64,000 nucleotides of DNA from Terriglobia bacterium (GCA_021325275.1 JAJPHL010000050.1:1-64000), one strand, 5' to 3'. Counted from the first letter of the stretch, positions 8,778 to 49,166 are shown. Notes: generated from the sequence alone by a model not told the origin. A program made the numbers and translations.

Positions 8778-10493
8778 TCAGGGCTTGTACGGCTCGGGAA
8801 TCGCCTCGCCGTCTTTGCGCGGATCGGATGCGCCGTAGTTCACGCCGTTTTTGAAATCGCGCATCACCGCTTGGCCGCCGCCCATTTGTTCCGAGTAGGG
8901 ACCGCGCACGTCGAACTTGTGGCCCATCTTCTTCAGTTCCTCGCGCACCTTTTCCGGCACGCGCTCTTCGATCATCAACTCGCAGCCGTTGAATTCCGGC
9001 ATGGTGAAGCGCGCGGCTTCCATCGCTTGCTGCAAATTCATGTCGTGATCGATCAGGTTCGACACGAACTGCGCGTGGGCCTGCGATTGATTCCATCCGC
9101 CCATGATTCCGAACGCCACGCGAATGTCGCCGCGGCTCATAAACGCCGGAATGATCGTGTGCAGTGGACGCTTGCGTCCGGCCAGGGCGTTGGGCGATTG
9201 CGGATCGACGCTGAAGAGCGCGCCGCGATTGTGCAGCGCGAAACCAGTGCCCGGCGCGACGAGTCCCGAGCCGAAGATTTCGTAATTGCTTTGAATCAGC
9301 GACACCATGTTGCCGTCGCGATCCACCACGCTCAGGTAAATCGTGTCGCCGCCCGTTCCCGGCGGAGTTCCCGCCGCCACGTCGCAGTTCGCGTGACCGG
9401 GAACGATGTGCGTGGCCCGCTCGCGTCCGTAATCTTTCGCGATCATGCCGCGCACCGGCACGTCCGCCGAGCGCGGATCGCCCGTGAACTTGAGGAGATC
9501 GGCGTAAGCGAGTTTTTTCGCTTCGATCATCACGTGCAGGGCGTTTACCGAGTTGTGTCCGAACTGGTTCAGTGGAAACACTTCCATGATGTTGAGCATT
9601 TCCAGAGCCGCCAGCCCCTGGCTGTTCGGCGGCAACTCCGAGACGGTCCATCCGCGATAGGTCGTGGAAATCGGATCGACCCATTCGCTCGAATACTCGG
9701 CGAAATCGGCCGCCGTCATCTTGCCACCGGTTTCTTCCTCCACGGTAAGGATGCTCGCGGTGATGCTGCCCTTGTAAAATGCGTCGCGGCCTTCGTTCGC
9801 CAGCAGCTTGTAGCTGCGCGCGAGGTCGGAATTCCGGAAAACCTCACCGTATTTCGGCGGCTTACCCGTCGGATAGTACAAGATCAAACCGGGGCCATTC
9901 TTTTTCATCAGTGACGCGCCGGCGTTCCAGCGTCCTGCGACCATTTCGGTAATCGGGAAGCCCTCCTCGGCGTAATGGATCGCCGGGGCGAGCAGGTCGG
10001 CCATCGGTTTGCTGCCAAAACGTTTTTGCAGCGCGAACCATCCGTCGACGGCGCCGGGAACGGTGACGGTGTGAATGCCCTTCTTCGGCATGATCGGCTT
10101 GCCGTCTTTGTCTTTCTCGATCAGGTTTTTCGATTTGAGAAAATCGATCGTCAGATCCTTGGGCGTCCATCCGCTGGCGTTCAAGCCATAGAGGCGGCCG
10201 GTGCGCGCCTCATAAACGATGGCGAACAGATCGCCGCCAATGCCGTTGCTCATCGGCGCGACCAAGCCCATTACCGCGTTCGCGGCGATCGCGGCGTCCA
10301 CGGCGTTGCCGCCGTGCGCTAGAATCATCGCACCGGCTTGCGAGGCCAGGGGATGCTCGGTAGCCACGACGCCCTGCTTCGACATGACTTGCGAGCGCGC
10401 CGACCAACGGTCCATGGAACGGTCGAGGGCGTCTTGCGCGGAGAGAGTCCCCGCAATGAAAACGGTGGCGAATAGAATAAAGATGCGCAACAT
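8778..10493 (-). CDS. ggt: Gamma-glutamyltransferase family protein (Ntn hydrolase)
   Basis: A 571-residue precursor with signal peptide MLRIFILFATVFIAGTLSAQ. The large-subunit signature GGNAVDAAIAANAVMGLV lies near residue 60, and GIGGDLFAIV follows. The small subunit should begin at the nucleophile Thr in GGDTIYLSVVDRDGN, followed by GSGLVAPGTGFALHNRG. The nucleophile context (GGDT rather than the usual TTH) fits the YwrD-like branch. The family removes or transfers gamma-glutamyl groups from glutathione-like compounds in the periplasm. A second, more classical member lies at 47432-49123. Confidence 0.9.
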   Translation of the reverse strand: MLRIFILFATVFIAGTLSAQDALDRSMDRWSARSQVMSKQGVVATEHPLASQAGAMILAHGGNAVDAAIAANAVMGLVAPMSNGIGGDLFAIVYEARTGRLYGLNASGWTPKDLTIDFLKSKNLIEKDKDGKPIMPKKGIHTVTVPGAVDGWFALQKRFGSKPMADLLAPAIHYAEEGFPITEMVAGRWNAGASLMKKNGPGLILYYPTGKPPKYGEVFRNSDLARSYKLLANEGRDAFYKGSITASILTVEEETGGKMTAADFAEYSSEWVDPISTTYRGWTVSELPPNSQGLAALEMLNIMEVFPLNQFGHNSVNALHVMIEAKKLAYADLLKFTGDPRSADVPVRGMIAKDYGRERATHIVPGHANCDVAAGTPPGTGGDTIYLSVVDRDGNMVSLIQSNYEIFGSGLVAPGTGFALHNRGALFSVDPQSPNALAGRKRPLHTIIPAFMSRGDIRVAFGIMGGWNQSQAHAQFVSNLIDHDMNLQQAMEAARFTMPEFNGCELMIEERVPEKVREELKKMGHKFDVRGPYSEQMGGGQAVMRDFKNGVNYGASDPRKDGEAIPEPYKP

Positions 10494-10522: not shown

Positions 10523-12133
10523 ATGAAACCGCGAACTTTTCCCCGCAAGCCCCGCAACTTCAAAGAACGCATCGAGCACGCCCGCGATCGCTTTCGCGCG
10601 CGGATGGAAGCGGCGGGTGCGCGCGACGTGTGGGCGCGCTTCGGGGGACGGATCGGCGTTGTGCTGGCGGGCGGCGGTGCACGCGGCGCCTACGAAGCAG
10701 GCGCGCTGCTGGCGTTTCAGGACGCCGGCATGCCCACGCACGTGATTTCCGGCGCGTCGATCGGCGGAATCAACGCGGCCAGCTTCGCCGCGCACTCGCG
10801 CGGACTCGTCGGCAACGCCGAGCACTTGATTCGCACGTGGATGAAGCTGACGTCCGAGGGCGTGGGCATCGATTGGTCGCGCTACATTTGGAAACTCGTG
10901 GGACTGGTGGCGTTTTGGGCGGGCGTGGGAAATTTATCGCTGGTGATGCTGGAATCCCGCGGCGTGCATTTGAACTTGCCGCACCCGATACTCACGTGGA
11001 CGCTGCTGGCTGTCGCGGGCGTCTCGGTAATGTTGTTCTACGACACGATTCCCTATTTCGGCTACTTGCTGAAAAACATGGTGAGTCGCACGGCGCTGCG
11101 CCGCGCGGGGTTTTCACCGCATCGCGGGCGCGCGCTGGCGAGTCTCGGCGCGAATCTTCTGGTGTGGGGATCGTTCATAGCCCTGCTGCTCTCGGTGGGC
11201 GTATTGAACTTTCTCGCGGAATTATTGCATCCCGCCATTGCCGCCGCGGCGGTAGTGGCGGTCGGTGCGAGCGTGGGATTGCGCCTGTTTGCGCCGCGTC
11301 TGTTGCAAACCGCGTTGCACAAATTACTGCGCCTGCCGTTTCGCCGGGGACTATTCAACAATTTCAATCGCACGCGCTTGCTGCGCCGCTCGATCTCCGA
11401 GCGAAAACTGCGCGAGTCGCCGATTCGCGTGGTCTTTCCCGCCGCCGACGTCAACGAAGGACCGCCCATCTACTTCAGCAACGCGACAGCCGAGGCGCTG
11501 GCCGGCGATCCCGGCGCGAAACGCGCGTTCGCCGAGGGCGTTTCCAGTCCCCACGATTTAGTGTTGGCGCTCGCCGCGACATCCGCGGTGCCGCTGGCGT
11601 TCGAACCGATCCGCTATCGCGGCCGCCTGCTGGCCGATGGCGGGCTCGTGGCAAACCAGCCGATTCGTCCCGCGGTGCATCTCGGCGCGGACGTAGTTTT
11701 TCTGGTGTTGATGGAACCTATGGAATCGCGGCGCGAACCCGTCCGCACGTTTTTGGACATGGGTCTGCGCGCGCTGAATATTTTGCTGCTGCAAACTTTC
11801 CTCACCGATCGAAAGACGCTCGAGGGCATCAATGAAATGTGCGCGACCGCCGCGGAGTCGCTGGGATTGCGGCCGGAAGAAGTGGAAGTGGACGTGGGCA
11901 CACGCACCTATCGCTATGTGAAGGCATTCACGATCAGCCCGAAGCGTGCGCTCGACGCCGGACGCTTGGATTTCGGCGGCGCGGCGACATCGCGCGCGAT
12001 CATGCAGGGTTATCGCGACGCGCGGCGCGCGGTGACGGCGTTTCTGGAGTACGCACGCGAGTCGCACTATGGCGGCGAGCGTCGTGGATTGCGTCTACAA
12101 GCCGTGCCGCAACCGGATAGCGTCGGGCATTAG
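10523..12133 (+). CDS. Patatin-like phospholipase with internal membrane segments
   Basis: A 536-residue protein. The oxyanion motif GGGARGAYEAG starts near residue 50, and the nucleophile Ser79 is in SGASIGGINA (GxSxG). Hydrophobic helices interrupt the fold between residues 110 and 250 (LVGLVAFWAGVGNLS, LLAVAGVSVMLF, LLVWGSFIALLLS). The catalytic Asp is in LLADGGLVANQPI near residue 372 (DGG). Patatins hydrolyse acyl esters of phospholipids; the inserted helices suggest a membrane-bound lid. It is divergent from the gamma-glutamyltransferase gene by 29 bases, and its stop overlaps the convergent GH140 frame by 4 bases. Confidence 0.88.
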   Translation: MKPRTFPRKPRNFKERIEHARDRFRARMEAAGARDVWARFGGRIGVVLAGGGARGAYEAGALLAFQDAGMPTHVISGASIGGINAASFAAHSRGLVGNAEHLIRTWMKLTSEGVGIDWSRYIWKLVGLVAFWAGVGNLSLVMLESRGVHLNLPHPILTWTLLAVAGVSVMLFYDTIPYFGYLLKNMVSRTALRRAGFSPHRGRALASLGANLLVWGSFIALLLSVGVLNFLAELLHPAIAAAAVVAVGASVGLRLFAPRLLQTALHKLLRLPFRRGLFNNFNRTRLLRRSISERKLRESPIRVVFPAADVNEGPPIYFSNATAEALAGDPGAKRAFAEGVSSPHDLVLALAATSAVPLAFEPIRYRGRLLADGGLVANQPIRPAVHLGADVVFLVLMEPMESRREPVRTFLDMGLRALNILLLQTFLTDRKTLEGINEMCATAAESLGLRPEEVEVDVGTRTYRYVKAFTISPKRALDAGRLDFGGAATSRAIMQGYRDARRAVTAFLEYARESHYGGERRGLRLQAVPQPDSVGH

Positions 12134-13221
12134 TTGCCATCCAGCACCAAGACCCAATCGTTGCCCTTCTCCGGTGGTGTGAATGTCACAATGCCTTCGT
12201 TCTTCATCGATCCCGCGGGTTGCGCTTCACCCGTGCGCGGATCGAACCATGATGCGCTAACCTTCGTGCCGCCGATCGAGCCCATACGAACCTTGAACGC
12301 GCGTCCGGTGTAGGTGTACGCGAACAAATAGCTCTTGCCGCGCATCGCGACCACGCGGTCGTAGCGTTCGCCTTGGTCGACAATCACGCTGTCGTCCGGC
12401 ACGCGCTCGAAGTACGGACGCGAGAGCATCAGTTTTTTCAAATATTGCATCTGTCCCGCGCCGGGATCGTCGAGCGCTTCGGTCCAAAAGTTCTTCACGC
12501 CATATGCGCCCGCCCCGAGTCCGGGTGCGTGAAATTGCATGATGGCGTTGTCGCCGTAAGTGTGTCCGGCCGCGCCGGCGAACACGGACCAGTAGGCGTA
12601 ACGCCGGACATCGGACGCCTGCCAATACGGTTCCTTAGGGTCATGCAAGCCTTGCGGAATATTTTCGTACGACGGCTCGCCGTCGATCACCGGCTTTACG
12701 GGGACGCGCGCGTAGTCGTCGCGAACAAATCGCCAATTGTCTTCGCCGTACTTGTGTGGAGAATCGGCATCCTGCGCGTAATTGCGATGGCCCGACTGAA
12801 ACATGTTGAAGTCGAGCCAGGGATCGTTGTGAAACCAAGTTGAGGAGTCTGTGCGCCCGAAAGGATGAAACGTGATGAGGTGATCGGGATCGACGCCTTT
12901 CAGCGTTTCTCCCAGCGCGTTCCATACTTCTTTGTGGGTGTCGCCGGGAATGTCGCCGCCGACAATCCACACGATGTTCGGTTTGCTGCGGTACCGCTCG
13001 CCGAGAAACTTGGCGTACGCGTCGACGTTGCGGGCGTTCAATTGACCTGACTTCACAAGCGATCCCCACGCCGGAACGAGCGCCAGAACCATTCCGCGCC
13101 TCGCAGCAGCTTCGATGACCCAGTCGAGATTCGTCCAGTAACTCGAATTGCGATCAAACAATGCGTCGGTGCCGGACGCGGGCAATTCGTCTTTCGAGTG
13201 CAGCACCATCACTTGTGTCAC
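12130..13221 (-). CDS. GH140/DUF4038-type glycoside hydrolase domain, cut off from GH95 by an in-frame TGA
   Basis: The translation matches the DUF4038/GH140 TIM-barrel and its C-terminal sandwich: VWIVGGDIPGD, ITFHPFGRTDSSTW, KPVIDGEPSYENI and YWSVFAGAAGHTYGDNAIM are typical, and the end has the beta domain with DPRTGEAQ. The first in-frame start (GTG at 13219-13221) falls inside the barrel, so it cannot give a whole fold. Coding potential continues to 13311 (LADTAWLLLSRLDRTQTEKY). The missing strand (GGHFFQSETGQPFF) is the tail of the upstream GH95 frame, before the TGA at 13312-13314 that sits where the family has Trp. It is either a dead domain or made by readthrough. Confidence 0.75.
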   Translation of the reverse strand: MTQVMVLHSKDELPASGTDALFDRNSSYWTNLDWVIEAAARRGMVLALVPAWGSLVKSGQLNARNVDAYAKFLGERYRSKPNIVWIVGGDIPGDTHKEVWNALGETLKGVDPDHLITFHPFGRTDSSTWFHNDPWLDFNMFQSGHRNYAQDADSPHKYGEDNWRFVRDDYARVPVKPVIDGEPSYENIPQGLHDPKEPYWQASDVRRYAYWSVFAGAAGHTYGDNAIMQFHAPGLGAGAYGVKNFWTEALDDPGAGQMQYLKKLMLSRPYFERVPDDSVIVDQGERYDRVVAMRGKSYLFAYTYTGRAFKVRMGSIGGTKVSASWFDPRTGEAQPAGSMKNEGIVTFTPPEKGNDWVLVLDGN

Positions 13222-13311
13222 GTTGAAGCCTTTGCGCTGGCGATCGTCGAGATATTTTTCCGTTTGCGTCCGATCGAGTCGGCTGAGGAGGAGCCAAGCT
13301 GTATCAGCCAG

Positions 13312-15711
13312 TCAAAAAAACGGCTGGCCCGTTTCGCTTTGGAAGAAATGCCCCCCGGGAGAGCGTTCCACGCGCGGACCTGTGGCGACGGGTTTCCCCC
13401 CGTGGCCTTGAAGCACCATCCACCGCTGTTCTCCAGCCTTCAGTCGCACACGTGTCGTCGACGCGCCTACGCGTACGACAAACTCGCCGCCAACTCTGGC
13501 ATGGAGGGCCGCCGTGAGCGGCTTTCCGTCCGCCCAGCTGATATCGACGTCTACGCCGCCGCGCGCCCGCAGTCCTTTCACCGATCCGCTCGACCACTCG
13601 CGCGGCAACGCCGGCAATAGATTGATTTCTCCCGCGTGACTTTGCAGCAGCATCTCGGCGATTGCAGCGGTCGCTCCGAAATTACCGTCAATCTGAAACG
13701 GCGGATGCGTGTCGAGCATGTTGGGAAGCGTCGACTTCGAGAAAAGCGCGAGCAAATTCTGGTGCGCCAGTTCGCCTTCTTCGAGTCGCGCCCAAATGTT
13801 GATGATCCACGCCCTGCTCCATCCCGTGTGACCGCTGCCCGCCGCGAGACGCCGCTCCAGCGCCGTCCGCGCCGCCGCCGCAAGTTCCGGTGTGCCGCGC
13901 AACGTAATCTGGCTTCCCGGATGCAGCGCCCACAAATGCGAAATGTGGCGATGGCCGGGATCGGGCTCGTCGTAGTCTTCGAGCCACTCTTGCAAGTTCT
14001 TGTGCTTCCCGATTTTCAGCGGCGGCAGCTTGGCGCGCGCTTTTTCGAGCTGAGCGCGAAACGCGGCGTCGCGATTCAGCAGCTTGCTCGCTTCGATCAC
14101 GTCGCCGAATAGCGCCCAGGTGACTTCCGTGTCCATGTACGGCGCCATCACGAGCGATCCCGTTTCGCCGTTAGGGAGGCGATAGCGATTCTCAGGCGAA
14201 ATCGACGGGCCCGTCAGTAACAACTCACGGCCGTCGGGCGATTTCCACGGCGTCATGTAGCCGAGCAGAAATTGCGCGGCTTCTTTCATCACCGGATACG
14301 CGCGCTTGTCGAGAAACGCGCGATCCTGCGTGAACAAGTAGTGCTCCCAGTAATGCAGACTGAGCCACGCGCCCCCCATCGGCCAGATTCCCGAATGCAC
14401 ACCGTCGATCGGCACCGCGTCGCCCCAAGCGTCGGTGTTGTGGTGCAGGACGAATCCCGGCGCGTTGTACAAACCTTTCGCGACGTGGCGTCCGTCGGGA
14501 ATCGCGTTTTCCACAAGATCGAAGAGCGGCGCGGTGAGGTCGGAGAGGTTCGTGGTCTCGGCCGGCCAATAGTTCATCTCCGTGTTGATGTTGATCGTGT
14601 ATTTTGAATCCCAACTCGGCGCCAGCGAGTCGTTCCACAGTCCTTGAAGATTCGCGGCCATGCCGCCGGGACGCGAACAGGAAATCAAAAGATAGCGGCC
14701 GAATTGAAAATACAATTCCGCAAGTTTCGGATCGGGGATGCCCGCGGCGACGCGCTTCAATCGCTCGTCGGTGGGAATGTTGGGAACGATCCCCGGCAAA
14801 TTCAACTCGACGCGCCGCATGAACGGCTGATAGTCGGCCAAATGTGCAGCGCGCAGCGCGGAGTACGGCTTGTTCGCCCCTTTCAAGTACGCATCGGCCT
14901 TGGCTATAGGATCGTCTTTGCGAAAATCCGTCGCGGCCGCGATCAGCAACGTGACGGCGTTCGCATTTTCCACGGACAAGGTCGCGTTTTCCGCGTGAGT
15001 GCGGCCGCCTTCGGCGATTGCTTGCACAACGGCGCGGAAACGCACGCCGGTGGGACGCTCGTCGGAATGATTTTTGTCGTGCGCGATCGCTTGGCCATCC
15101 ATCACCAAACGGTCCGGCGACTCGCTGTGCGTCGTCGCGTCGGCTTCGCGGCGCATTTCTGCCACGAGACTCACGCGGCCCGGCTTGTCGCACGTGATTC
15201 GCACGACGATCACTTGATCGGCGGCGGTTGCGAAGATTTCGCGCGTGAAAACGGCATCGCGCGAGCGATACTCCACGCGCGCGACGGCGGTGTCGAGATC
15301 GAGCGAACGGCGATAATCGCTGACGCCCGCGGAATCTGGGAGACGGAGGTACAGATCCCCAAGCGTCTGATACATCGGCATGCGCCGGGGGATCGCGATC
15401 ATCGCCTTATCAGCGAGGTCCTCCGCTTCTTTGATGCGCCCCGCGAAGAGCAAGCGCCGGACCTCGGGCACCGCCGCCGCACCCGCGGGATTCAAGCGAT
15501 CGCGTTTTTCGCCGGCCCAAATGGTGTCTTCGTTCAGTTGCAAATGCTCTTCGCCGGCGCCGCCGAAGATCATCGCGCCCATCCGGCCGTTGCCGATGGG
15601 CAGCGCTTCATTCCATTTTGTCGCGGGCTGCGTGTACCAAAGAAGTTTGCTTTGCGCGCCAAGCGCCTGGGACGCCGGAAGCAACAGCAGAAGGTAGAGC
15701 GCGAATCGCAT
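13312..15711 (-). CDS. GH95 family alpha-L-fucosidase/galactosidase, stop codon inside a fused GH140 domain
   Basis: A 799-residue secreted enzyme (signal peptide MRFALYLLLLLPASQALGAQ). The GH95 N-terminal domain is seen in WNEALPIGNGRMGAMIFGG and LQLNEDTIWAGEK. The (alpha/alpha)6 barrel has LQGLWNDSLAPSWDSKYT and ININTEMNYWPAE, with the Asn residues used by AfcA-type enzymes to activate water. HTGWSRAWIINIWAR and QIDGNFGATAAIAEMLLQSH also fit. GH95 enzymes remove alpha-1,2-L-fucose or L-galactose from glycans. The GH95 fold ends near residue 770; the last residues are the first strand of the GH140 domain, and the frame continues in register beyond the TGA. Confidence 0.9.
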   Translation of the reverse strand: MRFALYLLLLLPASQALGAQSKLLWYTQPATKWNEALPIGNGRMGAMIFGGAGEEHLQLNEDTIWAGEKRDRLNPAGAAAVPEVRRLLFAGRIKEAEDLADKAMIAIPRRMPMYQTLGDLYLRLPDSAGVSDYRRSLDLDTAVARVEYRSRDAVFTREIFATAADQVIVVRITCDKPGRVSLVAEMRREADATTHSESPDRLVMDGQAIAHDKNHSDERPTGVRFRAVVQAIAEGGRTHAENATLSVENANAVTLLIAAATDFRKDDPIAKADAYLKGANKPYSALRAAHLADYQPFMRRVELNLPGIVPNIPTDERLKRVAAGIPDPKLAELYFQFGRYLLISCSRPGGMAANLQGLWNDSLAPSWDSKYTININTEMNYWPAETTNLSDLTAPLFDLVENAIPDGRHVAKGLYNAPGFVLHHNTDAWGDAVPIDGVHSGIWPMGGAWLSLHYWEHYLFTQDRAFLDKRAYPVMKEAAQFLLGYMTPWKSPDGRELLLTGPSISPENRYRLPNGETGSLVMAPYMDTEVTWALFGDVIEASKLLNRDAAFRAQLEKARAKLPPLKIGKHKNLQEWLEDYDEPDPGHRHISHLWALHPGSQITLRGTPELAAAARTALERRLAAGSGHTGWSRAWIINIWARLEEGELAHQNLLALFSKSTLPNMLDTHPPFQIDGNFGATAAIAEMLLQSHAGEINLLPALPREWSSGSVKGLRARGGVDVDISWADGKPLTAALHARVGGEFVVRVGASTTRVRLKAGEQRWMVLQGHGGKPVATGPRVERSPGGHFFQSETGQPFF

Positions 15712-15717
15712 GATGCA

Positions 15718-16632
15718 TTATCCGCGAAAAGCGTTTTTCACGAGAAAGAACAAATTCGCGGGACGCTCGGCGAGGCGCCGCGTGAGATACGGAAACCAGT
15801 GCGATCCAAAAGGAATGTACACGCGCACGCTCCATCCTTGCGCGCGCAACTGCCGTTGCAAGTCGCGGCGGATTCCGTAGAGCATCTGGAATTCGAACGC
15901 GCTCGGCGGCACGCGGTTGCGATTGGCATGATCGATTACCGCGCGAATCATCCGCATGTCGTGCGTGGCGATCCCGTGGTACACACCGCTGGTCAGCAAC
16001 TCCTGCGACAACCGAATGTAGTTTCGATCCACGTCGGCCTTTAGCGGATACGCAACGTCGGGAGGTTCCTGATAGGCGCCTTTACACAAGCGAATGCGGA
16101 TGCGTTCCGCGAGGAGCGCGTGAACGTCCGAGTCGCTGCGGCGCAGATACGCCTGGATCACCGCGCCGATGTTCTCGTGACGCACGTGCATTTCGCGCAC
16201 CATCGCCAGCGTGCGCTCGGTGTACCCGGAACCTTCCATGTCCACGCGCACGAAATTGCCAAGCGACGCCGCGCGCGTTACTACGGCTTCCAGGTTTTCG
16301 CGGCAGAGGTCCGGTGAAACGTCCAAACCGAGTGCCGTGAGCTTCAGCGACACGTTGCAATCGAGCCCGCGTTCCGTGATGGTCTGGAGCATGTCCAAGT
16401 AGACTTGCGCCGCCGTGCGCGCCTCCGCCTCCGACGCGGTGTTCTCGCCCAGGTGGTCGAGCGTGCCCGAAATCCCCGCGGCGTTCAATTCCTTCACGGC
16501 TCCCAACGCTTCGTCGAGTGTCTCGCCGGGCACCCAACGCTTGGAAAGACGCCGCGCCGCCTTCGAATCGGAGACGACGCCGCGAACCGCGGAATTCTGC
16601 GCGATGGAGAGAACTGTCGATCGCAATGACAT
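15718..16632 (-). CDS. Proline dehydrogenase (monofunctional, PutA PRODH domain)
   Basis: A 304-residue FAD enzyme that oxidises proline to pyrroline-5-carboxylate. The beta/alpha barrel motifs are visible: LDHLGENTASEAEA, NVSLKLTALGLD, FVRVDMEGSGYTERTL, IRIRLCKGAYQEP and GIATHDMRMI. The C-terminal FEFQMLYGIRRDLQ and VYIPFGSHWFPYLTRRLAERP are the substrate-binding helix region with its conserved Arg residues. The length fits the stand-alone enzyme found in bacteria that keep the P5C dehydrogenase on a separate gene. It starts 11 bases after the trxB stop in the same strand context. Confidence 0.93.
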   Translation of the reverse strand: MSLRSTVLSIAQNSAVRGVVSDSKAARRLSKRWVPGETLDEALGAVKELNAAGISGTLDHLGENTASEAEARTAAQVYLDMLQTITERGLDCNVSLKLTALGLDVSPDLCRENLEAVVTRAASLGNFVRVDMEGSGYTERTLAMVREMHVRHENIGAVIQAYLRRSDSDVHALLAERIRIRLCKGAYQEPPDVAYPLKADVDRNYIRLSQELLTSGVYHGIATHDMRMIRAVIDHANRNRVPPSAFEFQMLYGIRRDLQRQLRAQGWSVRVYIPFGSHWFPYLTRRLAERPANLFFLVKNAFRG

Positions 16633-44985: not shown

Positions 44986-46812
44986 TCAATGCGCTTGGCT
45001 CTCGGAAACCAAGCGCAACCCCCAATCGTTGTCGCCCGGAAAGTCCGGCAGCGTGATGATGCCGATGACGCTGGATCTCAGCGATCCGGCCGGCACCCAG
45101 GTTCCCGCGCGAGGATCAAACCACTCGGCCCGATAAACGCTGTTGAGGCGCGCTCCACGAATCTGGCTGCGCGGGCAACCTTTTTCAAAGTAAACAAGAA
45201 ATATGTTCTTGTCGGGCGTACGCGCCGCGTAGGCCCAGCCTTCGTAGCCGCGCAAGACGGAAGTCTTGTTCGGAGAAACCAAGTCGGCGTCGGGCTGCAA
45301 ATCCCGGTAGCGCGTTCCGATGGCGAATGCGAAGTCGCGCAGGTAGCGCATCTCGCTGCCCGAGCGCCATTGGAACGCGTCCCACATCTTCACGGGCGCC
45401 GCATCCTCGATGTCCGCGCCCCAGATCCCTTCCGCTCCGTAGACGTGCCCGGCGAATCCGCCCGACAGAAAACTGCCGTACATGGCGGAGCGCACGAACT
45501 GATCGTCCTTTTCGGTTCCCCCGGGCGCGCCGTACTGATAGCCTCTCCCGTCGCCGAGCGAACGAGCGTCGGTGTAGCCGGAATAATAGGGTTCTCCATT
45601 AAGCGCGGGACGAGGCGCCGCGGCTCGAAATATCTCGGTGAGATACCAATAGTTGTTGTGCTCGCGCATGTTGCCGATCTGATGCAGCGTGACCCAGGAG
45701 TTGTCGCCCCAGTTCTCCAGCGTGGAAGGATTGGCGTTGGCGGAGAGCAGCGTGCCGAAAGGCGGCAAGCCGAATTTCTCTTTCACCTGTTCGATGGCCT
45801 TGGAATACTCCGCCGGACTGATCGTCTCGCTGATGATATCCAGATGAATCGGGCTGAGCACGGTGCTGTTGGCCTGATATCGCGACCAGATGTATTGGAT
45901 GAAACGCGCGTAGGAATCCGGCCATTGGTAATACTTTTTCCAGCACAGGCTGGCATCCCGCCTGGACACCTCGATGAACGGCACGAAACCTTGCTCGTTC
46001 AGGTAATCGATCTTGCGGTCCAAGTAGCGGAAGTACTCCGGATTGATGCGGTCGACGTCCGGGAACATTTGCTCGTACCCCGGGACTTTGCCTGGAAATA
46101 GAAAAGGCCGGCCGCCCTCGTTATCCATGTTCTTGGCGCTGTTAGCGCCGAATTCCAGCCAAGCGGAGCGCACCGTGGTCTTCTCGGGATCGTTCATCAC
46201 CACGCGCCAAGGCGATCCATCGGTCATCCAATTGGGAAACGCGGCGATCAGGTTGATCCAGTTGTAGCCCTGCGCCTTGCGATAGCGAACATAATCCTTG
46301 AATCCCGCGGACGGACCGATGGGGCGCTCGCGATCGTCGTCGTACCAACGGAAACGGTTCGTGCCGGCGGCCCACCAGGTGTCGCCCAGCGCGAAGAACG
46401 GCGTGCCGTCGGCGAATTGCAGGGCGTGTTGCTGGGGCGTGGCGCGAAGAAAACCGCGGCGCAGAGGATTCTGCCGCTTCTCTTCGTCGCTCCATCGTAA
46501 AGCCGTAAAGGATCCCGTCTTCGACGGCGCCGCGTCCGCCGGCGTGGAGCCGCTCTTCCATCTCCACACGCCTGGCTCGGTAGCCAACAAGCGGACGCGA
46601 AAGGTCCGGCCGCCGTCCCAGAACCCATAGATACGCTTGTAGAAGTTGGGTCCGCGGAGATCGACCCAAACGGTGACATCCTTGTAAGGATTTGCGAACG
46701 GACGAGCCAAGTCAAACGCGAGTTCCTGCTTTTCCCAAACATGTATCGCGGCCTGTGCCGGAATCGTGGCAGCAGCACAGAAAACCAGCGCGAGCCAGGC
46801 AGGTTTCCGCAT
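44986..46812 (-). CDS. Secreted DUF5060/DUF4038 glycoside hydrolase
   Basis: A 608-residue protein with a signal peptide (MRKPAWLALVFCAAATIPAQA). Residues 25-110 are a DUF5060 beta-sandwich (VWVDLRGPNFYKRIYGFWDGG, EPGVWRWKSGS). A DUF4038/GH140-like TIM barrel follows (FADGTPFFALGDTWWAA, GYNWINLIAAFPNWM, PIHLDIISETISP). It ends in a C-terminal sandwich (AEWFDPRAGTWVPAG). The start at 46812 gives a proper signal sequence; an ATG at 46842 is in frame. It is a relative of the interrupted GH140 domain at 12130, and here the motif after PFF is intact in phase. Substrate is probably a plant or microbial polysaccharide side chain. Confidence 0.88.
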   Translation of the reverse strand: MRKPAWLALVFCAAATIPAQAAIHVWEKQELAFDLARPFANPYKDVTVWVDLRGPNFYKRIYGFWDGGRTFRVRLLATEPGVWRWKSGSTPADAAPSKTGSFTALRWSDEEKRQNPLRRGFLRATPQQHALQFADGTPFFALGDTWWAAGTNRFRWYDDDRERPIGPSAGFKDYVRYRKAQGYNWINLIAAFPNWMTDGSPWRVVMNDPEKTTVRSAWLEFGANSAKNMDNEGGRPFLFPGKVPGYEQMFPDVDRINPEYFRYLDRKIDYLNEQGFVPFIEVSRRDASLCWKKYYQWPDSYARFIQYIWSRYQANSTVLSPIHLDIISETISPAEYSKAIEQVKEKFGLPPFGTLLSANANPSTLENWGDNSWVTLHQIGNMREHNNYWYLTEIFRAAAPRPALNGEPYYSGYTDARSLGDGRGYQYGAPGGTEKDDQFVRSAMYGSFLSGGFAGHVYGAEGIWGADIEDAAPVKMWDAFQWRSGSEMRYLRDFAFAIGTRYRDLQPDADLVSPNKTSVLRGYEGWAYAARTPDKNIFLVYFEKGCPRSQIRGARLNSVYRAEWFDPRAGTWVPAGSLRSSVIGIITLPDFPGDNDWGLRLVSESQAH

Positions 46813-46913
46813 CAAGCGAATCCTGGAAAGTCCGATTGGCATTTGGAGCTATTGTACGCCGGGAAAATGTACGCCGAGAAAACGGTGATCGCCGCGACGG
46901 GCAATCGCCGGCG

Positions 46914-47431: not shown

Positions 47432-49123
47432 TCAATAACCCTGGGCACGACCGCCACGCCGTCCGTCGGACCACCCTAGGCGCCAGCCGCTGCCTTCTTC
47501 CACTATCACGGCGTGCACATCGCCCTGCGAGCGCAGCCGCGGGTTCAACGTGTGCCCAAACGACTCCAGCTTTCGCGCGACGTCGAGCACCAGCGCGGCA
47601 GGTTCGGCGTCCACGCGATCGGGCAAGTATTGGTGATGGATGCGCGGATACTCGACGGCATCGCGCAACGACATCTTGGAGTCGATGATGTTGACGATCA
47701 CCTGAAAGACGGTGTTGGGAATGGTCGCCGAACCGGGCGATCCAAGCGCGAACCAGGGCGAGCCGTCGGCGTGCAGCACAATGGTCGGCGACATCGAAGA
47801 AACCGGCCGCTTCCCTTCTTTGATTTCGTTCTTCCCGCCGGCCTGGTTGCTAAAGCCGCTCATGATGTCGTTGAGCAACACGCCCGTGCCGTGAGCCATC
47901 ACCTGGGATCCGTAAAAACTGTTCAGCGTGTAAGTGTTGCTGACGATATTGCCCGCTTCGTCGATCACGGAAAAGTGAGTGGTGTCCTCGGATTCGTAGC
48001 CACTGGGTTGCGCCGGGCCGCTGGCGCTGGAAGGAGTCGCATGATCGGGCTGAATTGTCTTCGCCAGGTCGGCGGCGTGTTCCTTGCTGGTGAGCATCGC
48101 CACGGGAATGGTGATGAATCCCGGATCGCCGGAGAATTCCGCGCGGTCGCGATAAGCGCGGCGCATCGATTCGATCATGTAATGGCGCTGCTCCGACGAT
48201 CCTTCGTAGCCCAACCGCGCCGGATGCGTTTCGAAAATGTTGAGCATTTCGATCAGCGTCACGCCGCCCGACGACGACGGCGGCATCGAAAGAATCTTGT
48301 TGCCGCGAAACGTGCCGGCCACCGGATCCCGCTCGATGGCCTTGTACCCACGCAAGTCGCCGTAGCGAATTGTCCCGTTGTGCGCGGCCATGTCGGCGTC
48401 GATCAGGTGGGCGGTTTGGCCCTCGTAAAACTCGCGCCAACCTTTCTTCTGGATGCGCGCGATGGTCGCTGCCAATTCCGGCTGGCGCACCCATTCTCCC
48501 TGCTTGAGTGGACGATCCGCGCCGTGCAGGAAGATTCTCGCGCTATCGGGGAATTGCTTCATCGCGGGAACTTGTAACGCCAGGATCAACTCCATGCGCT
48601 GCGACGCCGGAAAACCGTCGCGGGCGAGTTTGCGGGCGGGTTCGAGATCGGTCTTCCAAGAAAGTTTGGCGAAACGCGCGTGAGCCATGCCCATCCCCGC
48701 GACGGTTCCGGGAACGGCCGACGCTTTATAGCCCACGGAATTCTCCCGCGGGTTGACGAACATTCCCGGGTGCGCCAAGGCCGGCGCCGTTTCTTTGTAG
48801 TCGATGGCGCGCGCCGTGCCATCGGCCATGCGCACCAGCATGTATCCGCCGCCGCCCAAGTTCCCGGCCTCGGGATGCACCACCGCCAACGCGAATCCCA
48901 CAGCGATAGCGGCGTCAACCGCATTGCCGCCCTTACGAAGAACGTCGAGACCCACGCGCGAAGCGATCTCGTTGGCGCTGGCGATCATGGCCTTCGGCGC
49001 CCGCTCCGGCTGGCTGACCATGGGACGCGCGGCCTTCAGTTCCAATCCACTCTGCGAAACTTCTTGAGCGGGAAGGAGGCCGGCAAAAAGTGCGACGACG
49101 ATGGCGACGAGGAGTCGCGGCAT
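47432..49123 (-). CDS. ggt: Gamma-glutamyltransferase (classical type)
   Basis: A 563-residue precursor with signal peptide (MPRLLVAIVVALFAGLLPAQ). The large subunit has GGNAVDAAIAVGFALAVVHP and NLGGGGYMLVRM. The autoprocessing nucleophile is the second Thr in EDTTHFSVIDEAGN near residue 375. The small subunit has NDIMSGFSNQ, KRPVSSMSPTIV and the oxyanion Gly pair in GSPGSATI. It hydrolyses gamma-glutamyl bonds such as glutathione in the periplasm. The first 30 or so bases of this gene plus upstream sequence are copied at 54460-54497. Confidence 0.93.
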   Translation of the reverse strand: MPRLLVAIVVALFAGLLPAQEVSQSGLELKAARPMVSQPERAPKAMIASANEIASRVGLDVLRKGGNAVDAAIAVGFALAVVHPEAGNLGGGGYMLVRMADGTARAIDYKETAPALAHPGMFVNPRENSVGYKASAVPGTVAGMGMAHARFAKLSWKTDLEPARKLARDGFPASQRMELILALQVPAMKQFPDSARIFLHGADRPLKQGEWVRQPELAATIARIQKKGWREFYEGQTAHLIDADMAAHNGTIRYGDLRGYKAIERDPVAGTFRGNKILSMPPSSSGGVTLIEMLNIFETHPARLGYEGSSEQRHYMIESMRRAYRDRAEFSGDPGFITIPVAMLTSKEHAADLAKTIQPDHATPSSASGPAQPSGYESEDTTHFSVIDEAGNIVSNTYTLNSFYGSQVMAHGTGVLLNDIMSGFSNQAGGKNEIKEGKRPVSSMSPTIVLHADGSPWFALGSPGSATIPNTVFQVIVNIIDSKMSLRDAVEYPRIHHQYLPDRVDAEPAALVLDVARKLESFGHTLNPRLRSQGDVHAVIVEEGSGWRLGWSDGRRGGRAQGY

Positions 49124-49166
49124 GAGCGGAATCATACCTTGTAGCGGAGGCCTTCAGGCCTGCTTC

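Follow-up and report, generated by a model that had tools for sequence, protein, structure and literature searches.

A minus-strand frame that joins a GH95 domain to a GH140 domain occupies positions 15711 to 12130 of the window, the stretch of 64,000 nucleotides analysed here (JAJPHL010000050.1:1-64000), which belongs to the draft assembly of a Terriglobia bacterium (GCA_021325275.1, 75 contigs). The frame comprises 1,193 codons and a TAA stop (1,194 codons including the stop), and direct reading and translation both bear out the initial annotation, according to which it is continuous apart from a single TGA. This TGA is codon 800 (13312-13314) and stands in place of the TGG Trp codon of the motif PFFW-L-x-DTAW; translation of the minus-strand frame around it gives ...GHFFQSETGQPFF*LADTAWLLLSRLD.... 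Its first base is the final T of a run of seven T on the same strand (13314-13320), and the reading frame continues in phase through the run.

The part that is translated normally (13315-15711, minus strand) has 799 amino acids and consists of a signal peptide, a complete GH95 enzyme and a tail of about 30 residues, GH95 homologues ending at the strand that matches residues 760-768 or so. A linker of about ten residues, GHGGKPVATG (13378-13407, minus strand), leads from the last GH95 strand to the first GH140 residues. The mature N-terminus of the GH140 domain, PRVERSPGGHFFQSETGQPFF (13315-13377, minus strand), lies before the TGA; position by position, it aligns with PRLKVSENRRFLVTDDGRPFF in the free-standing relatives. 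After the TGA, the remainder of the GH140 domain (12130-13311, minus strand) continues for 393 codons without any further stop or frame shift, and its catalytic-type Asp (GGD) and Glu (GEP) are present.

The immediate neighbours encode a gamma-glutamyltranspeptidase, a patatin, a proline dehydrogenase, a thioredoxin-reductase-like protein, an acyltransferase and an amidase, and the immediate neighbourhood is not a polysaccharide locus. The fusion gene begins a few bases past the proline dehydrogenase gene, which ends at 15718; a promoter scan found no credible promoter between the two, and the fusion may share a transcript with the proline dehydrogenase gene. The window also contains two gamma-glutamyltranspeptidase-like genes (8778-10493 and 47432-49135), the second of which was judged by sequence only.

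The GH95 part

The Pfam N-terminal, catalytic and C-terminal domains of GH95 span residues 24-756 of the fusion, with scores of 250 bits for PF14498, 567 bits for PF22124 and 77 bits for PF21307; together with the signal peptide they form a single protein that is predicted to be exported. Acidobacterial GH95 proteins share 60-65 percent identity with this part, and two of its 89 near-invariant columns are altered, which places it in the middle of the ranking among 116 sequences. It is the sole GH95 match in the genome. Where GH95 relatives terminate with a strand such as GKEYRLRFR followed by a stop, the fusion has GEQRWMVLQ, then GHGGKPVATG and then PRVERSPGGHFFQSETGQPFF. Elsewhere among the relatives, GH95 matches with one or two in-frame stops were seen at G782:C388, G555:C2, G862:C83, G837:C103 and G624:C361, some of which may be alignments that overrun a normal stop.

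The GH140 part and its state after the stop

Pfam places the Apiosidase domain PF13204 at residues 785-1102 and the C-terminal domain PF12904 at residues 1104-1191. With the TGA read as Trp, the match to PF13204 is complete, including the first strand, and extends over model positions 2-320 with 379 bits; a frame begun after the TGA covers positions 18-320. Since position 2 of the model is reached only with residues that precede the TGA, the stop lies inside the GH140 domain and not between the domains. It falls at about position 17 of the model, and the domain is consequently not encoded by an uninterrupted translated gene. The part after the stop alone scores 355 bits, which excludes a chance match. 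The GGD and GEP residues align with 3KZS, and we take them to correspond to D187 and E284 in the numbering of BT1012.

No sign of decay was found after the stop. None of the 37 near-invariant columns of the GH140 part (those conserved in at least 95 percent of relatives) is altered, the hexamer coding score is 0.58 after the stop versus 0.50 for the GH95 part, and GC3 is 0.71 after the stop versus 0.74 before it. The terminal branch of the GH140 part (0.42) falls between the shortest and the longest of its sisters' branches, all taken from one node. The intact columns, the ordinary branch length and the normal coding signal together indicate that the lesion is recent, or that it is an error, or that the domain is still expressed.

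Only two PF13204 genes are present in the genome: the fusion and a DUF5060-DUF4038 gene at 44986-46842, which reads GTPFFALGDTWW at the corresponding site. This second Apiosidase-family gene, with its N-terminal DUF5060, is a distant relative of the fused GH140 domain.

The residue at codon 800

Among 32 homologues, the residue aligned with the TGA is Tyr in 17, Trp in 13, Leu in one and Ile in one. All nine other members of the GH140 clade that contains the fusion have Trp, which supports the proposal in the initial annotation that the TGA replaces a TGG Trp codon; its description of this Trp as conserved applies throughout the clade and does not extend to the family, where more than half of the homologues have Tyr. 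An ancestral Trp is the simplest assumption because TGG and TGA are one transition apart, while Tyr codons are two changes away, and from the aligned sequences TGG>TGA is the simplest history of the codon. Furthermore, 113 nonsense transitions are possible in the fusion gene, of which 70 fall at Trp codons (35 being TGG>TGA), so that the occurrence of a stop at a Trp codon is unremarkable.

Origin of the fusion

The read-through protein was searched for in 61 close relatives, 396 genomes of the phylum and 237 genomes of the family richest in such genes, and the GH140 part was searched for in 399 genomes of the class; all searches together covered about 880 distinct genomes, and a scan of genome contigs and plasmids was added. 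GH95 and GH140 were found in one frame nowhere else in this material, matches to both domains in one frame coming from the window alone. In the fetched flanks of a few kilobases, no GH95 gene lay near the closest GH140 genes and no GH140 gene near the closest GH95 genes. One GH140-like gene is directly followed by a GH95 fragment (G027:C97:13502-15069; L021, L029), in the reverse order to that in the window. A literature search, which reached a minority of the subscription papers, turned up no account of a GH95-GH140 fusion.

In the GH140 tree the fusion falls within a ten-member clade with 100/100 support, the other nine members of which are free-standing genes, and the closest GH140 genes have their own start and a signal-like leader. 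An ancestral fusion shared by relatives is not borne out: no orthologous fusion was found, and the nearest GH140 genes show the separate arrangement, with starts and leaders of their own, that the initial annotation had named as evidence against its view. On these comparisons, the fusion is derived, and within the genomes sampled it is confined to this lineage. The junction retains the whole of GH95 and the whole of mature GH140, and only the stop, the spacer and the leader are gone; a junction as clean as this points to a fused protein that was once functional.

In plant cell walls, L-galactose or L-fucose is the target of some GH95 enzymes. BT1012, a GH140 enzyme, is a beta-apiosidase that removes apiose from the galacturonic acid backbone of rhamnogalacturonan-II (PMC7939467). 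Given these roles, the joining of the two enzymes makes sense.

Interpretation of the stop

Codon 800 is probably a recent and real nonsense allele in a young fusion, from which an exported GH95 precursor of 799 residues is made and GH140 arises only through background misreading of UGA. In this account, a GH95 gene and a GH140 gene would have been joined in frame in this lineage, the GH95 stop being lost together with the start and signal peptide of GH140, such that a single leader exported both enzymes. Later, a single G>A change would have converted Trp codon 800 from TGG to TGA, an order of events that agrees with the earlier proposal that the fusion preceded the stop. Ribosomes would now stop at the TGA, GH95 would be released whole and exported with its short tail, and GH140 would go unmade save for a small full-length background, should near-cognate tRNA-Trp misread UGA. 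The unaltered near-invariant columns, together with a branch of the length found in the sister genes, argue that the lesion is recent. The exact preservation of the remainder of the frame is equally expected under a consensus error or under selection acting through read-through. The initial annotation had offered a nonsense allele, a leaky stop and a sequencing error, and this proved to be the right set of candidates.

A consensus error or strain mixture would mean that the organism has TGG and a functional fusion, the A being an artefact of base calling, assembly or binning. A single substitution in an otherwise perfect frame, with no second lesion and no relaxed constraint, fits this explanation, as does the draft state of the 75-contig assembly. 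However, the run of seven T, which had been taken as a hint of a homopolymer error, does not account for the stop: an error in its length would put the two sides out of phase, and they share one frame. A sample of 788 kb of the genome was scanned for in-frame stops with coding sequence on both sides and no nearby restart. A scan with strict thresholds overlooked codon 800; a second scan returned two candidates, of which the TGA at codon 800 is the sole credible one, the other (a TAA, L191) being noise in a short contig. The scan thus shows no surplus of interrupted frames, so that the assembly is not generally error-rich, and a consensus error, though unlikely, is the likeliest of the alternatives to a nonsense allele. 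With a single credible in-frame stop in 788 kb, a general reassignment of UGA to Trp of the code 4 type can also be rejected.

A functional leaky stop would let enough ribosomes past UGA-C to be useful, mostly by insertion of Trp, and would yield mainly GH95 with a smaller amount of GH95-GH140. The TGA is followed by CTG, giving the context UGAC, which in E. coli counts as a weak terminator; near-cognate insertion of Trp would restore the residue of the clade, and GH140 is free of decay. However, the same fusion or stop was present in no relative searched, all of them of other species, and hence shows no evolutionary conservation among them, the local fold after the TGA is no more stable than that of shuffled sequences (z = -0.46), and no comparable site was found in the 788 kb. 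Functional leakiness is accordingly judged improbable. The more specific proposal, that in a lineage-specific fusion the proportion of exported GH95 to the two-enzyme protein GH95-GH140 is governed by a leaky UGA-C in place of a Trp codon, with Trp supplied by near-cognate tRNA-Trp, is quite doubtful. Slippage at the run of seven T was considered as well and rejected, since GH140 shares the frame of GH95 and a shifted frame would leave it; a programmed frameshift would enter the downstream domain by a shift, and here no shift is needed.

Translation of GH140 alone from an internal start, which would make the locus two separate genes, is very improbable. Start-like codons do occur in frame near the domain border (ATG at 13417-13419, GTG at 13414-13416 and GTG at 13369-13371), and GH140 is encoded separately in relatives. 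The statement in the initial annotation that neither a signal peptide nor a start lies between the domains therefore holds for the signal peptide and fails for the start. However, these codons are all upstream of the TGA and have no signal peptide behind them; moreover, the two domains are not separated by a stop, so that ribosomes translating GH95 would continue into GH140. The first start-like codon in frame past the TGA is a GTG at codon 831 (13219-13221, minus strand), and a product begun there would omit about 30 residues of the barrel, including its first strand and helix, so that a restart there would not rescue GH140.

Insertion of selenocysteine (Sec) at codon 800, which was absent from the earlier candidates, needs mention since the genome has the machinery for it: a tRNA-Sec with anticodon TCA (G000:C63:19870-19965; L229), SelB above the cut-off (G000:C2:69366-71240; L267) and a Sec-type formate dehydrogenase (G000:C27:120285-121637; L303), whose FdhA has a TGA in frame at the established Sec site (ENQARV-U-HGPTVSSLGPTFGRG), point to a working Sec system. 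Numerical limits on spacing form part of the SECIS rule. The rule used is permissive, 876 of 1,114 codon positions of the same gene passing it by chance; even so, no hairpin at SECIS distance with a G at the start of its apical loop was found after codon 800, the predicted loop being CCUCCUC, which lacks G. Discovery criteria for bacterial selenoproteins include Cys homologues and a G in the apical loop (PMC1088965), and Cys occurs at the aligned position in none of the 32 homologues, where the residue is Trp, Tyr, Leu or Ile. With the machinery present and the features of the site absent, Sec at codon 800 can for practical purposes be set aside. The site is a caution for automated selenoprotein prediction, as the Sec system is real and yet the site is unlike a Sec site.

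Read as a nonsense allele, codon 800 offers a snapshot of early gene decay, in which the second half of a young fusion of plant-polysaccharide enzymes is lost and the first half is kept whole. The architecture itself is one that neither the related genomes nor the wider genome scan contained.

Comparison with known systems

The upstream part resembles the GH95 alpha-L-fucosidase/galactosidase family (PDB entries 7KMQ and 4UFC) in having the complete three-domain GH95 and a signal peptide; GH95 relatives stop at the last strand, whereas the fusion frame continues into GH140. The downstream part resembles the GH140 apiosidase clade of the BT1012 type (PDB entries 3KZS, 5MSY and 8T9W), with a full-length match to 3KZS over residues 783-1190 (E of about 1e-132), the catalytic-type motifs GGD and GEP, and PFFWL at the N-terminus. 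However, the nine nearest relatives in this clade are free-standing and have leaders, whereas the fused domain lies behind GH95, has no leader and is cut by the TGA. Alignment with the solved structures is enough to establish that the domains are complete.

A comparable arrangement in another organism is that of a Prevotella metagenome-assembled contig (JAEEJK010000086.1, 6001-9690; L035), on which GH95 and GH140 follow each other in the same order, on one strand and a few codons apart, as in the fusion. There, unlike in the fusion, GH95 is closed by a stop and GH140 opens with an ATG and a signal peptide of its own; the two are separate tandem genes that share a frame by chance, and a second fusion was thus rejected. 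With nonsense-interrupted bacterial pseudogenes the locus shares a frame that would be intact but for a single premature stop. Unlike in those pseudogenes, the upstream enzyme is left complete and only the second half of the fusion is lost.
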